Below, one piece after another: positions 29,051 to 38,643 of a stretch of 64,000 nucleotides of DNA (within the stretch, counting starts at the first letter, position 1; every line of letters starts with the position of its first letter). Origin of the DNA: Allostella vacuolata (GTDB taxonomy: Bacteria > Pseudomonadota > Alphaproteobacteria > ATCC43930 > Allostellaceae). The position numbers and the translations under genes were made by a program. The stretch covers positions 3,559,388-3,623,387 of the forward strand of contig AP019702.1 in assembly GCA_006739055.1 (NCBI GenBank), read 5' to 3'. The notes beneath the pieces were generated by a model. The model saw only the letters and a program-made list of their open reading frames with translations, was not told the origin of the DNA and did no database searches.

Positions 29051-29245
29051 ATGTTCCGCTACGACATCGAGATCGAGGCCGCCTGCCTGCGCGCCGCCGC
29101 CACCGCGATGGCCGCCCCCAATTACCAGGGCGACCCGGCCGACCCGGCGGCGATCGCCCGGCTGGCGAAGCAGATCCTCGCCGCCTACTACACCGATGCC
29201 GCCGACGGCGAGATGCCGGCGCCGAGCATGCCCGACGTGATCTGA
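29051..29245 (+). CDS. Small hypothetical protein upstream of nitrile hydratase
   Basis: A 64-residue protein I do not recognise. It has a good ribosome site (AAGGAG) before its ATG. It lies 16 bases after the methyltransferase and 22 bases before the nitrile hydratase alpha gene, with codon use like its neighbours, so it is very likely real. It is mainly helical by inspection ([34 protein letters not shown]), with no Cys and no membrane segment. A role in nitrile hydratase assembly is possible but rests only on position. Confidence 0.7.
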
Positions 29246-29267
29246 AGCCGAACCGGGAGGAACGGCC

Positions 29268-29951
29268 ATGAGCAGCCACCACCACGACCATCATCATGGG
29301 CACGACCATCATCATGGGCACGACCATCATCATGGGCATGGGCACGACCATGGCGAGGAGCAGCACTGGACCGAGGTCGAGCTGCGGGTGAAGGCGCTCG
29401 AGTCCCTCCTGGTCGAGAAGGGCCTGGTCGACCCCGCGGCGCTCGAGGTGCTGATCCAGACCTACGAGACCAAGGTCGGCCCGCGCAACGGGGCCCGGGT
29501 CGTCGCCCGCGCCTGGACCGACCCCGCCTACAAGGCCCGCCTGCTGGCCGACGGCAGCGCCGCCATCGCCGAGCTCGGCTACACCGGCCGCCAGGGCGAG
29601 GACATGGTGGTGCTGGAGAACACCGACCAGGTGCATCACATGGTCGTCTGCACGCTGTGCTCCTGCTACCCCTGGCCGGTGCTGGGCCTGCCGCCGGCCT
29701 GGTACAAGGCCGCCCCCTATCGCGCGCGGGCGGTGCGCGAGCCGCGCGCGGTGCTGGCGGAGTTCGGCGTCCCGGTGCCGGACGAGCGCGAGGTCCGGGT
29801 GTGGGATTCGACGGCCGAGCTGCGCTACCTCGTGCTGCCGCAGCGCCCGCCCGGCACCGAGGGGCTGGACGAGGCGGCGCTGGCCGAACTGGTCACCCGG
29901 GATTCGATGATCGGGGTCGGCCAGCCGCGGCCCCCGGGAGAGACGCCATGA
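29268..29951 (+). CDS. nthA: Nitrile hydratase alpha subunit, cobalt type, with His-rich leader
   Basis: Metal-bearing subunit of nitrile hydratase, which converts nitriles to amides in the cytoplasm. The active-site motif [11 protein letters not shown] (Cys128, Cys131, Ser132, Cys133) has Thr-Leu and Tyr at the positions that mark cobalt rather than iron enzymes. The catalytic domain starts near residue 34 ([15 protein letters not shown]). Before it lies an extraordinary leader: 17 of residues 4-28 are His, in HHHGHD repeats, encoded by an 18-bp tandem DNA repeat. Normal alpha subunits lack this. It could store or load cobalt, like the His-rich tails of HypB, UreE or cobalt permeases. Its stop overlaps the beta gene start as ATGA. 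Confidence 0.92.
29289..29338 (+). repeat. 18-bp in-frame tandem repeat encoding HHHGHD
   Basis: The unit CATCATCATGGGCACGAC occurs twice exactly (29289-29306, 29307-29324) and a third time in part to about 29338. It lies inside the nitrile hydratase alpha gene and keeps frame, so copy-number change by slippage would add or remove six residues (four His) each time. Confidence 0.85.
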
Positions 29952-30601
29952 ACGGCGCCCACGACCTGGGCGGGGTCGACGGCTTCGGCCCGGTGCTGCG
30001 GGAGGCGGACGAGCCCCTGTTCCACCACCCGTGGGAGCGGCGGGCCTTCGCCGTCACCCTGGCGGCCGGGATGCTGGGCCGCTGGAACATCGACATGGCC
30101 CGCTTCGCGCGCGAGGACACGAGCCCCGTCACCTACCTCAACGCCACCTACTACGAGCACTGGCTGCGCGGGCTGGAGCGGCTGCTGGTCGAGCGCGGCC
30201 TGGTCGGCGCGGCCGAGCTGGCGAGCGGCCGGGCCGAGGGGCCGGGGCCGGTCCCGGCCATGCCGGCCGAGCGGGTGCCGGCCGCCCTGGCGCGCGGCGG
30301 GTCGGCCATGCGCCCGGCGACCGGTCCGGCGAAGTTCCGCCCCGGCCAGGCGGTGCGGGTGCGCAACCTCCACCCGCGCGGCCATACCCGGATGCCGCGC
30401 TACTGCCGCGGCCAGGTCGGCACCATCGAGCGCGACCATGGGGTCTTCGTCTTCCCGGACACCAACGCGGCGGGCCGGGGCGAGGCGCCGCAGCGCTGCT
30501 ACGCCGTCGGCTTCGCGGCGCGGACGCTGTGGGGCCCGGAGGCATCGCCGGTCGACCGGGTGATGGTCGACCTGTGGGACGACTACCTGGAGGCCGCGTG
30601 A
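29948..30601 (+). CDS. nthB: Nitrile hydratase beta subunit
   Basis: A 217-residue partner of the alpha subunit. [16 protein letters not shown] is the conserved beta N-terminus; [21 protein letters not shown] and [18 protein letters not shown] follow. The C-terminal SH3-like domain has [23 protein letters not shown] and [18 protein letters not shown]. Length is typical. It starts within the alpha stop (ATGA), ensuring equal synthesis, and its own TGA shares one base with the ATG of the accessory protein. Confidence 0.93.
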
Positions 30602-30969
30602 TGGCAGCCGACCTCAGCCAGTCCCCCGCCCTGCCGCGCGACGCGGACGGGCCGGTCTTCCGCGAACCCTGGGAGGCGGCGGCCTTCGCCATGGCGGTGC
30701 GCCTGCACGAGCAGGGCGTCTTCACCTGGACCGAATGGGCCGAGGCCCTGGCCGCGGAGATCACGGCCGCCCAGCGCCGGGGCGACCCGGATCTGGGCGA
30801 CACCTATTACCGCCACTGGCTGGCCGCGCTGGAGCGGCTGGTGGGCGCCAAGGGCGTCGTCACCCCGGCCGAGATGACGGCCCGGCGCGACGCCTGGGAC
30901 CGGGCGGTCCGCGCCACGCCGCACGGCCGGCCGATCGACCTGGCGCTGGGCCTGCGCCCGGAGGGGTGA
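30601..30969 (+). CDS. Nitrile hydratase accessory/activator protein
   Basis: A 122-residue homologue of the P14K-type activator and of the beta subunit N-terminal half (PVFREPWEAAAFAMAVRLHE, YYRHWLAALERLVGAKGV). In cobalt nitrile hydratases this small protein binds alpha and carries out self-subunit swapping that inserts cobalt and oxidises the active-site cysteines. Start ATG at 30601 overlaps the beta stop by one base (TGATG); a GTG three bases earlier is also possible. It ends the operon and is followed by a palindromic repeat element and then the P1B metal ATPase gene. Confidence 0.9.
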   Translation: MAADLSQSPALPRDADGPVFREPWEAAAFAMAVRLHEQGVFTWTEWAEALAAEITAAQRRGDPDLGDTYYRHWLAALERLVGAKGVVTPAEMTARRDAWDRAVRATPHGRPIDLALGLRPEG

Positions 30970-31257: not shown

Positions 31258-33486
31258 ATGCAGACGACGACCACCGCCCCTCGCCCCGCCGAACCGCTGC
31301 ATTTCCGTGTCGAGGGCATGGATTGCGCCGGGTGCGCCCTCAAGATCGAGGGCGCGCTGTCGCGACTGCCGGGGGTGGAGGCGGTCGGCGTCGATGTCGG
31401 CCGCGGCACGGTGCGGGTCAGCCCGGGCGCCCGGCCGCCGGAGGCGGATGCGGTGATGAAGGCGATCCGCACGCTGGGCTACGGCGTCCGGCCCGCCGAT
31501 GGCATGGCCGCCGAAACCGCCCATTCCCCGGCATGCGGGCACGAGCACCATGATCATGCCCATGATCATGGGCATGGGCATGGGCACGGCCACACCCATG
31601 ACGACCCGGCCGACCGCGGCAAGCCCTGGTGGCGGACCGGCGGCGGCCGGCTGGTGATCGTGTCGGGCGCCCTGCTGGCGGCGGCGACGGTGGCGAGCTT
31701 CGTCCTGCCCGGGCTCGGCCCGTGGCCGTTCGTCCTGGCGACGCTGGTGGCGCTGGTTCCCGTCGCCCGGCGCGCCTTCGGGGCCGCCATGCTGGGCCAG
31801 GTCTTCACCATCGAGATGCTGATGACCGTCGCCGCCATCGGCGCGCTGGCGATCGACGCGGCCGAGGAGGCAGCCGTGGTCGTCTTCCTGTTCGCCGTGG
31901 GCGAGCTGCTGGAAGGGGTGGCCGCCGGCCGGGCCCGGCGCAGCATCGCCGCGCTCGCCGACCTGACGCCGCGCACCGCACGGATCGTCGAAGGCGAGCA
32001 GGTGCGCGAAGTGCCGGCCGACGCGCTGGTCCCGGGCCAGGTCGTGTTGGCCCGGCCGGGCGACCGCATCCCCTGCGACGGGCGCATCCTGGCCGGCACC
32101 TCCGAGATCGACGAATCCCCGGTCACCGGCGAATCCGTGCCGCGCGCCAAGGGGCCGGGCGACGACGTCTTCGCCGCCACCGTCAACCTGCAGGCAGCAC
32201 TGCGCATCGCAGTCACCCGCACGGCGGCCGACAACACCATCGCCCGCATCATCCGCCTGGTGGAGGATGCCCAGGCGTCCAAGGCGCCGGTGCAGCGCTT
32301 CATCGACCGCTTCTCGCGCATCTACATGCCGGCGGTCGTCCTGGTGGCGGCCCTGGTCGCGGTCGCGCCGCCGCTGCTGGCCGGGCAGCCATGGGACGTG
32401 TGGGTCTATCGCGCGCTGGCGCTCCTGCTGATCGCCTGCCCCTGCGCGCTGGTCATCTCCACCCCGGCCGCCATCGCCGCCGGCCTGGCGGCCGGCGCCC
32501 GGCGCGGCCTGCTGGTGAAGGGCGGCGGCGTGCTGGAGACGGTGGGCCGGCTGAAGACCATCGCCTTCGACAAGACCGGCACCCTGACCCGCGGCCAGCC
32601 GGCGGTGACCGACATCGTCGCCTTCGGTGCCCCGGCCGAAGAGGTGCTGCGCCTCGCCGCCGCGCTGGAGGGCGGATCGAGCCACCCGATCGCGCGTGCC
32701 ATCCTGGCCGAGGCGGCCCGGCGCGGCCTGGCCGTCCCCGCCCCGGGCGAGGTCGACACCATTCCCGGCCGCGGCATCCGCGGCACGGTCGAGGGCCGCG
32801 CGCTGCTCCTGACGGAGCCGCGCAGCGCCGGCCGGGCCGCGCCGATCGATGCGGCCGCCCAGGATGTCGTCCGTACGCTGGAGGAGGCCGGCAAGACCGT
32901 CGCCGTGCTGCACGCGGACGGCGTGGCGCTGGGCCTGGTCGCGGTGCGCGACGAGCCGCGGGCGGACGCCCGGGCGGCGCTGGCCCGGCTTTCCGCGCTC
33001 GGCATCCGCAGCGTCATGCTGACCGGCGACAATGCCCGCACCGCGGCCGCCATCGGCCGCGACCTCGGCATCGAGGCCCGGGCCGAGCTGCTGCCCGAGG
33101 ACAAGGCGCGCATCGTGGGCGAGCTGCGGGCATCTGGCGGCCGGGTCGGCAAGGTCGGCGACGGCATCAACGACGCACCGGCGCTGGCCGCAGCCGATGT
33201 CGGCATCGCCATGGGTGCGGGCACCGACGTCGCCATCGAGACCGCCGACGCCGCCCTGCTGCGCAACCATGTCGGCGGGGTGGCCGAGCTGGTGGTGCTG
33301 TCGCGCGCCACCATGGCCAACGTCCACGCCAACGTGGCCATCGCCCTCGGCTCCAAGGCACTGTTCCTGGTCACCACCGTGCTGGGCCTGACCGGCATGT
33401 GGATAGCGGTCCTGGCCGACACCGGCGCCACGGTGCTGGTGACGCTGAACGCGCTGCGGCTGCTGGGGGTCAAGCTGGATCGGTAG
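31258..33486 (+). CDS. P1B-type heavy-metal-transporting ATPase (Zn/Cd/Pb, possibly Co)
   Basis: A 742-residue inner-membrane efflux pump. Order: metal-binding domain with GMDCAGC (Cys23, Cys26); His-rich stretch CGHEHHDHAHDHGHGHGHGH (93-112); membrane segments; actuator SPVTGES; translocation CPC (394-396); phosphorylated DKTGT (Asp438); SHP (475-477); TGDN (589-592); GDGINDAP (634-641); and a final segment with DTGATVLVTLNALRLL, the P1B-2 signature. This predicts Zn2+/Cd2+/Pb2+ export. It sits 288 bases after a cobalt enzyme operon with its own promoter, so a role in disposing of excess metal is plausible but inferred. AAGGA lies about 9 bases before the ATG. Confidence 0.93.
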   Translation: MQTTTTAPRPAEPLHFRVEGMDCAGCALKIEGALSRLPGVEAVGVDVGRGTVRVSPGARPPEADAVMKAIRTLGYGVRPADGMAAETAHSPACGHEHHDHAHDHGHGHGHGHTHDDPADRGKPWWRTGGGRLVIVSGALLAAATVASFVLPGLGPWPFVLATLVALVPVARRAFGAAMLGQVFTIEMLMTVAAIGALAIDAAEEAAVVVFLFAVGELLEGVAAGRARRSIAALADLTPRTARIVEGEQVREVPADALVPGQVVLARPGDRIPCDGRILAGTSEIDESPVTGESVPRAKGPGDDVFAATVNLQAALRIAVTRTAADNTIARIIRLVEDAQASKAPVQRFIDRFSRIYMPAVVLVAALVAVAPPLLAGQPWDVWVYRALALLLIACPCALVISTPAAIAAGLAAGARRGLLVKGGGVLETVGRLKTIAFDKTGTLTRGQPAVTDIVAFGAPAEEVLRLAAALEGGSSHPIARAILAEAARRGLAVPAPGEVDTIPGRGIRGTVEGRALLLTEPRSAGRAAPIDAAAQDVVRTLEEAGKTVAVLHADGVALGLVAVRDEPRADARAALARLSALGIRSVMLTGDNARTAAAIGRDLGIEARAELLPEDKARIVGELRASGGRVGKVGDGINDAPALAAADVGIAMGAGTDVAIETADAALLRNHVGGVAELVVLSRATMANVHANVAIALGSKALFLVTTVLGLTGMWIAVLADTGATVLVTLNALRLLGVKLDR

Positions 33487-37629: not shown

Positions 37630-38643
37630 TCATGCCGCCGTCGCCCGCCATCCGGCCTCCAGTTCCGCGGCATCCAGGTCGCGGCCGATCAGCACCATGG
37701 CCGACCGGCGCGGGCCGTCCGGCCAGCCGGCGAGCAGGGTCGGCGGGTGGAAGACGTGGTGAACGCCGTGAACGGCCACCGGCGCCGCCTCGCCCGCGAT
37801 GTCCAGCACGCCCTTGACCCGCAGCAGGTCCGGCCCGCGCCCGGCCCGCAGCGCCGCGAGCCAGCCGGACAGCTTCGTCCAGTCGAGCGGCGCGTCGTGG
37901 GTGAGGCTGACCGAGGCGATGGCGCGGTCGTGGCGCGGCAGCGCGGCGCCGTGGGCCTCGGCCGACAGCCAGCGGACGACGTCGGGGATGCGGCGGTCCG
38001 GGTCGTAGAGGCCGGCGCCGAACAGCGCGTCGGGGTCGACCTCGCCCGCCGCCGCCTCCAGGATCGGGGCGGCCGGATTGAGGGCGCGCAGGCGCCGGTG
38101 CAGCACCGCCACCGCCCCCTGCGGCGCCAGGTCGGCCTTGGTCACCACCAGCCGGTCGGCGATCGCCACCTGCTTGACGCTTTCCGCATGCCGGCCGAGC
38201 TGCATCGCGCCATGCACCGCATCAACCGTCGCCACCACCGCGTCGAGGCGGAAGGAATGGAGCACCAGCGGGTTGGCCAGCAAGAGCTGGACCAGCGGTG
38301 CCGGGTCGGCCAGGCCGGTCGTCTCGACCAGGACGCGGGCGAAGGCGGGGATCGTCCCCGCCTCGCGCCGGGCCAGCAGGTCGCGCAGCGTCGTCTCCAC
38401 GTCGCTGCGCACGGCGCAGCAGATGCAGCCCGACGCCAGCACCACCACCTCGCCCGCCACCGCCTCCACCAGGCGGTGGTCGAGCGCGATCTCGCCCAGC
38501 TCGTTCACCACCACGGCGCTGTCGGCCATGGCGTCGCGGCGCAACAGGCGGTTCAGCAAGGTCGTCTTGCCGCTGCCGAGGAAGCCGGTGACGATCGATA
38601 CCGGGATGCGCCCGGCCGACTTGTCGCGATCGAAGAGGCTCAT
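37630..38643 (-). CDS. CobW/COG0523-family GTPase
   Basis: A 337-residue G3E GTPase. Walker A is GFLGSGKT (20-27), VVVNELGEIALDHRLVE follows, the metal motif is Cys73-x-Cys75-Cys76 in ASGCICCAVRSD, VLVETTGLADPAP and VTKADL follow, and the C-terminal CobW_C domain contains VHGVHHVFHPP, a His-rich loop that can bind metal. The VNELGE and GCICC types are found in zinc-responsive YjiA/ZigA-like proteins as well as CobW. It has no partner enzyme beside it, which suggests a general metallochaperone. No clear Zur box was seen upstream. Its ATG at 38643 is divergent from the cyclase gene. Confidence 0.88.
   Translation of the reverse strand: MSLFDRDKSAGRIPVSIVTGFLGSGKTTLLNRLLRRDAMADSAVVVNELGEIALDHRLVEAVAGEVVVLASGCICCAVRSDVETTLRDLLARREAGTIPAFARVLVETTGLADPAPLVQLLLANPLVLHSFRLDAVVATVDAVHGAMQLGRHAESVKQVAIADRLVVTKADLAPQGAVAVLHRRLRALNPAAPILEAAAGEVDPDALFGAGLYDPDRRIPDVVRWLSAEAHGAALPRHDRAIASVSLTHDAPLDWTKLSGWLAALRAGRGPDLLRVKGVLDIAGEAAPVAVHGVHHVFHPPTLLAGWPDGPRRSAMVLIGRDLDAAELEAGWRATAA

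Follow-up and report, generated by a model that had tools for sequence, protein, structure and literature searches.

Why should the alpha subunit of an otherwise normal nitrile hydratase (NHase) begin with a stretch that consists largely of histidine? The question is raised by a gene at positions 29268..29951 (+) of the window, i.e., the 64,000-nucleotide stretch of Allostella vacuolata DNA analyzed here. The 227-aa product of this gene contains a complete NHase alpha domain (PF02979, residues 36-218, with residues 1-35 lying outside the match), passes the curated alpha model TIGR01323 with 313.6 bits against a cut-off of 249.85 and has 3qxe_A as its best match among the solved structures. The thiocyanate hydrolase gamma identity was considered and rejected, the score with TIGR03887 being 188.1 bits (cut-off 291.45). 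The sequence VCTLCSC at residues 127-133, of which residues 128-133 (29649..29666, +) form the metal-ligand motif CTLCSC, is invariant in all 45 rows of our alignment, the window row included, and is read as the cobalt-type motif in the available part of PMC3323583. The genes for the alpha subunit, the beta subunit (29948..30601, +; TIGR03888, 249.2 bits, cut-off 152.2) and the activator, or accessory protein (30601..30969, +; TIGR03889, 100.6 bits, cut-off 46), follow each other in this order with overlapping stop and start codons; alpha and beta are thus separate genes with alpha first, rather than parts of the fused opisthokont layout. By its model matches, motif and operon partners, the window protein can be identified as a cobalt-type NHase alpha subunit, and on this point, as on the presence of the small activator, our results agree with the preliminary description of the locus. 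A 64-aa open reading frame (ORF) at 29051-29245 (+), located between an O-methyltransferase gene and the alpha gene, has no family match and no match in three Stella relatives.

The leader itself comprises 17 His within residues 4-28 (29277..29351, +). Codons 6-23 consist of the 18-bp unit CACGACCATCATCATGGG in three identical copies (29283..29336, +), each encoding HDHHHG, and Tandem Repeats Finder reports a repeat at 29283-29338 with 3.1 copies and 100% matches; the HDHHHG unit is the HHHGHD array of the preliminary description taken in a different register. The exactness of the copies implies that the present length of the leader is owed, at least in part, to repeat expansion. An internal start near residue 34, named in the preliminary description as one of the findings that would refute its reading, can be ruled out because there is no in-frame ATG, GTG or TTG between the first codon and codon 41, and GTG41 already lies inside the conserved core; in addition, a Shine-Dalgarno-like GGGAGG (29255..29260, +) is found 7 nt upstream of the ATG. 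The 17 His in the best 25-residue stretch are the highest count among the 343 alpha subunits that we sampled, and the maximum within the first 50 residues of 1852 other ORFs from the fetched loci, which were chosen on length alone and include some non-genes, is 7 His per 25 residues. The leader, ahead of a normal alpha domain, is confirmed as real, translated and His-rich far above chance and, with His at 17 of 25 residues, is a low-complexity segment of the kind found in the tails of HypB and UreE. In an AlphaFold2 model built on the 45-row alignment, the first three ten-residue blocks (residues 1-30) have pLDDT values of 44, 50 and 54, the first helix starts at residue 36, and pLDDT exceeds 90 for 123 of the 227 residues, with a dip at approximately 131-150, in the region of the metal motif. 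The model is consistent with a free disordered arm, low pLDDT by itself being no proof of disorder. The window columns H26 and H28 are at least 90% conserved in the same alignment, in which the leaders are only loosely alignable.

Is such a leader peculiar to this organism? From 359 loci, we obtained 343 distinct alpha subunits with readable N-termini (matches below 100 bits had been discarded uncounted beforehand, and 14 identical proteins and two without a start were then dropped). Of these, 66 were found by scanning for near relatives with six peptides, one of which fell in the leader, and 277 were reached through the PF02979 core; the class-level relatives mostly represent the better-scoring places among the matches listed. 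Start codons of the relatives were assigned by a script based on Shine-Dalgarno sequences and preference for ATG, and some of the long leaders (e.g., L132, L148, L154 and L274) are probably called too far upstream. With this set, at least 3 leader His are present in 241 proteins, at least 7 in 86, and none in 50, whereas a density of more than 10 His per 30 residues, the level proposed in the preliminary description as a search threshold, is reached in 19 of the 343. The distribution by source is uneven: leaders with at least 3 His occur in 178 of the 219 alphas from Pseudomonadota genome sets and in 13 of the 58 from mostly actinobacterial sets. Leaders comparable to that of the window were found in Azorhizobium oxalatiphilum (L050, 17 His) and in a Natrialbaceae archaeon (L071, 16 His), and the four members of the genus that were compared have 18 (L001), 16 (L004), 9 (L005) and 5 (L003) leader His. 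The view that the leader is unusual therefore holds for its extreme His content but not for its presence. Judging from these comparisons, a His leader is a family trait of cobalt-type NHase alpha and thiocyanate hydrolase gamma subunits that is widespread in Pseudomonadota, and the window leader represents a long version of a tail common to most of the sampled Pseudomonadota relatives. Cobalt-type proteins devoid of leader His also exist (44 of the 329 CTLCSC alphas), and in 1ire_A, a cobalt enzyme of solved structure, the match at residue 30 of the window protein is preceded by only 9 residues. Among viral contigs, 11 stretches fit a search pattern, and none of these was confirmed as a relative.

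The best solved match, 3qxe_A, which we take to be a chain of the Pseudomonas putida NRRL-18668 NHase, carries the His leader GQSHTHDHHHD at the same position as the window leader, with 5 His (counted by eye) compared to 17. The cobalt NHase of this strain has the same alpha-beta-activator gene order as the window, and its mature alpha subunit starts with GQSHTHD, such that the leader is kept in the mature alpha and in the complex with the activator (PMC3511329, available part). Thiocyanate hydrolase gamma (2dd4, 3vyg), the homologous subunit of a different enzyme, carries the leader DHDHDHDHDH in its deposited chain 2dd4_C. Fused NHases of opisthokonts possess His stretches of 17 (M. brevicollis), 12 (T. 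trahens) and 11 (S. arctica) residues; as described in the accessible text of PMC3323583, the stretch directly precedes an alpha domain with the cobalt-type motif, as in the window, but joins beta to alpha in a single chain, whereas the window leader forms the unattached N-terminal end of alpha. According to the available portion of PMC2770081, UreG, HypB and COG0523 proteins carry His-rich tails that are likewise low-complexity segments on proteins that assemble metal centers; the proteins in question are, however, maturation GTPases, whereas the window leader is part of an enzyme subunit, and we claim no homology. The window itself encodes a COG0523/YjiA-like GTPase (37630-38643, -) that has a CICC motif, no His stretch and NCBIfam matches that are all under the cut-offs. 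A search of open-licence PubMed Central articles by title and the beginning of the abstract returned no paper dedicated to a His-rich NHase leader in bacteria.

We further analyzed the genes that might supply cobalt. The gene at 31258..33486 (+), located in the window between the NHase operon and a short-chain dehydrogenase/reductase (SDR) gene, encodes a P1B-type heavy-metal ATPase with a His-rich linker of its own, which the preliminary description had connected to the NHase. The protein scores above the cut-offs of TIGR01525 and the cadmium-family model TIGR01512 and has strong matches to ZntA models, yet under their cut-offs; its membrane motif is CPC (IACPCALVISTP) and not SPC, the class motif of cobalt-exporting P1B ATPases. 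No match to the ATPase at E 1e-4 was detected around the NHase genes of three further Stella genomes (G001, G002 and G003), among which G001 and G002 allow the cleaner comparison, the other flanking genes being unmatched on the G003 contig as well; in G001, the activator gene is followed by the SDR gene and by a gene labelled as DUF169. We accordingly rejected the ATPase as an operon partner and judged it to lie outside the system: the connection does not survive comparison with these genomes, and a protein assigned to a Zn/Cd-type family lends no support for cobalt supply. In G002, a second activator-like stretch (L365 5247-5576) adjoins an incomplete SDR match and is separated from the NHase operon by about 2 kb. 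Elsewhere in the genome to which the window belongs, no match to CbiM or CbtA was found, and both NicO matches fall in a single frame, i.e., one NicO-family gene (L368 1465-2595, -; G000:C1:1571137-1572183), the product of which, by eye, looks like the RcnA exporter in having a His-rich loop. Motifs of NiCoT-type cobalt importers were found in 0 of the 86 loci with at least 7 leader His and in 9 of the 256 others (p 0.12, with unequal locus sizes). The same genome encodes a second alpha/beta pair (L366 6361-6861, -; G000:C1:2716360-2716905), with an alpha subunit that is 48% identical to the window alpha and has a single leader His.

The type of metal motif and the presence of the activator offer two further comparisons. 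All seven iron-type (CSLCSC) alphas in the sample have 0-2 leader His (at least 3 in 0/7) versus 238 of the 329 CTLCSC alphas with at least 3 (Fisher p 0.00015, uncorrected for kinship; the tree offers only 3 independent pairs, and the contrast has no power); the low His content of the iron-type proteins fits a role related to cobalt, across only three independent comparisons. A DNA-pattern search for additional iron-type genes in 369 genomes yielded 3 matches, none of them, on inspection by eye, in an NHase-like ORF. The activator was sought with the window activator as the query, by which distant activators may be missed. Among CTLCSC alphas with at least 62% core identity and full flanks, it was present in 24/24 loci with at least 7 leader His, 51/53 with 3-6 and 25/31 with 0-2, and the possibility that the leader substitutes for an absent activator was rejected on the first of these counts. 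When the CTLCSC alphas with full flanks are taken as a whole, the respective numbers are 26/50, 58/83 and 27/44, the decrease to 26/50 being caused by a distant clade of 79 alphas with an apparently split beta subunit (operationally, a beta-C match without a beta-N match in the same frame, assigned by script), 65 of which have at least 3 leader His. No activator was detected with this query in any of the 52 loci of the clade that have full flanks. The ORF with the beta-C match is no longer than 135 aa for 65 of the 79 alphas so classed, and in the members of the clade that came from actinobacterial searches the number of leader His ranges only from 0 to 2. Two split-beta loci were inspected gene by gene, L226 3002-4346 (-) and L239 2969-3939 (-); both are Pseudomonadota NHase-like loci in which beta is divided between two ORFs and alpha has a long His leader, and in L226 each of the two small ORFs matches one half of the beta model. 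Given that all 24 close relatives with long leaders have an activator, yet leaders also occur in the split-beta clade where none was detected, leader and activator appear to vary apart. A split beta is also a feature of the activator-free three-subunit NHase of Streptomyces canus (PMC7329996, in the part available), which resembles the three-gene relatives found here, whereas in the window beta is fused as usual and an activator gene is present. PMC7329996 also describes both alpha-activator subunit swapping and activator-free insertion, so that the preliminary description was too simple in assigning cobalt loading to the small activator only.

The evolution of the leader follows a distinctive pattern. 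Leaders contain 20.0% His and 14.4% Asp compared to 1.4% and 5.8% in the core, and the tripeptide HDH is found in 192 of the 343 leaders versus 2 of 1855 other ORFs (first 30 residues). Both His codons are used in 150 of the 158 leaders with at least 5 His, which indicates that it is the protein composition that is kept. On a tree of the alpha cores (FastTree only), the presence of at least 3 His switches 36 times, compared to a mean of 88.6 and a minimum of 79 in 100 shuffles. Pairs of proteins with 85-95% core identity agree on this state in 92% of the cases and have the identical number of His in 36%; at 65-75% core identity, the His counts are uncorrelated (r 0.07). Thus, the leader preserves its content of His and of HxH/HDH, whereas its length and order change fast. 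We read the combination of a clustered His state with rapidly drifting counts as a sign that selection probably acts on the composition of the leader and constrains its length little.

These observations, together with published measurements on relatives, lead us to propose, with a probability of about one half, that the leader is a loose, dispensable metal-capture arm that acts beside the activator and is not a tight store, the role in metal binding being presumptive. The next candidate, which we consider rather unlikely, is a neutral, slippage-prone tail, the length of which drifts through repeat expansion with little functional consequence. The exact 18-bp repeats, the range from 18 to 5 leader His among the four members of the genus and the loss of correlation between His counts, already identical in only about a third of the closest pairs, are all compatible with such drift; the clustering of the His state on the tree, its near-constancy among those same pairs, the mixed synonymous His codons and the bias toward both His and Asp weaken it. 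At the other end of the scale is the proposal of the preliminary description that alpha is its own cobalt reservoir, which, similarly to the HypB and UreE tails, would store several Co(II) per alpha and feed them to the active site. By simple chemistry, several ions could fit on 17 His, and the leader does sit on the subunit that receives the metal. However, the relatives argue against a reservoir. In Table 2 of PMC3511329, the portion of that paper relevant here, the holo NHase of P. putida contains 0.88 Co per alpha-beta (439 units/mg), the alpha-activator complex 0.91 Co, the apo forms 0.03-0.04, and the enzyme with an N-terminally HisT7-tagged alpha 0.89 Co (396 units/mg), the tag at the same end being the only bench data bearing on the arm of a bacterial enzyme in the open literature searched. 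Although the P. putida leader, with its 5 His, is far shorter than that of the window, the values with and without the tag imply that a His leader, even when lengthened, does not hold additional cobalt that survives purification. According to the available text of PMC7193024, a secondary source citing Yang et al. 2018, the Monosiga enzyme does not need its (His)17 region for metal incorporation. Taken together, approximately 0.9 Co per alpha in P. putida and the dispensability of the Monosiga stretch make tight cobalt storage unlikely, with the proviso that the available parts of these sources do not cover low cobalt. We therefore regard a reservoir in the window protein as very unlikely, the least probable of the alternatives discussed here.

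Two other functions deserve consideration, and both strike us as improbable to the same degree. Zn, Ni and Cu are bound by His-rich tails at least as well as Co(II), and the leader might accordingly serve as a guard that takes up these wrong metals and keeps the thiol site of apo-alpha clear; leaderless cobalt-type relatives, however, manage without an arm. Alternatively, the leader might have no role in metal handling and instead contact beta or the activator and guide the exchange of alpha during assembly. This docking role would be in line with the presence of the leader in the P. putida alpha(P14K)2 complex (PMC3511329, as far as available) and with the co-occurrence of long leaders and the activator among the closer relatives; across all CTLCSC alphas with full flanks, however, the association is lost, a gap that is due to the split-beta clade.

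Under the metal-capture reading that we favor, the leader would be a flexible His/Asp-rich N-terminal arm, which in Stella would have been lengthened through repetition of the 18-bp unit and which would remain on the mature protein, as is in print for P. putida only. In the cell, the arm would be a weak, exchangeable ligand for divalent ions, namely Co(II) and, as its chemistry suggests, Ni, Zn and Cu as well, and under cobalt scarcity would raise the odds of an encounter between Co(II) and apo-alpha or the alpha-activator complex; it would release the metal afterwards and thus act as a dispensable helper alongside the activator. A more far-reaching version of this scheme, which we put forward as a speculation and consider unlikely, is that the cobalt NHase alphas of Pseudomonadota possess a widespread cis-acting capture arm that, under cobalt limitation, passes Co(II) to the thiol site of the same subunit. 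Alpha would then be a part of its own metallochaperone, the activator, which in the window has 0 Cys and 3 His (by eye) and no obvious metal site, would only open alpha and drive the subunit exchange, and Stella would represent an extreme, repeat-expanded form.

The arm should not be taken for a one-off invention of a single genome. For the entry of cobalt into NHase, a non-corrin cobalt enzyme, subunit swapping, direct delivery and activator-free insertion have all been reported (PMC7193024 and PMC7329996, in the parts available). A common His-rich arm on the very subunit that receives the metal would be a cheap variable for testing how cobalt is inserted.
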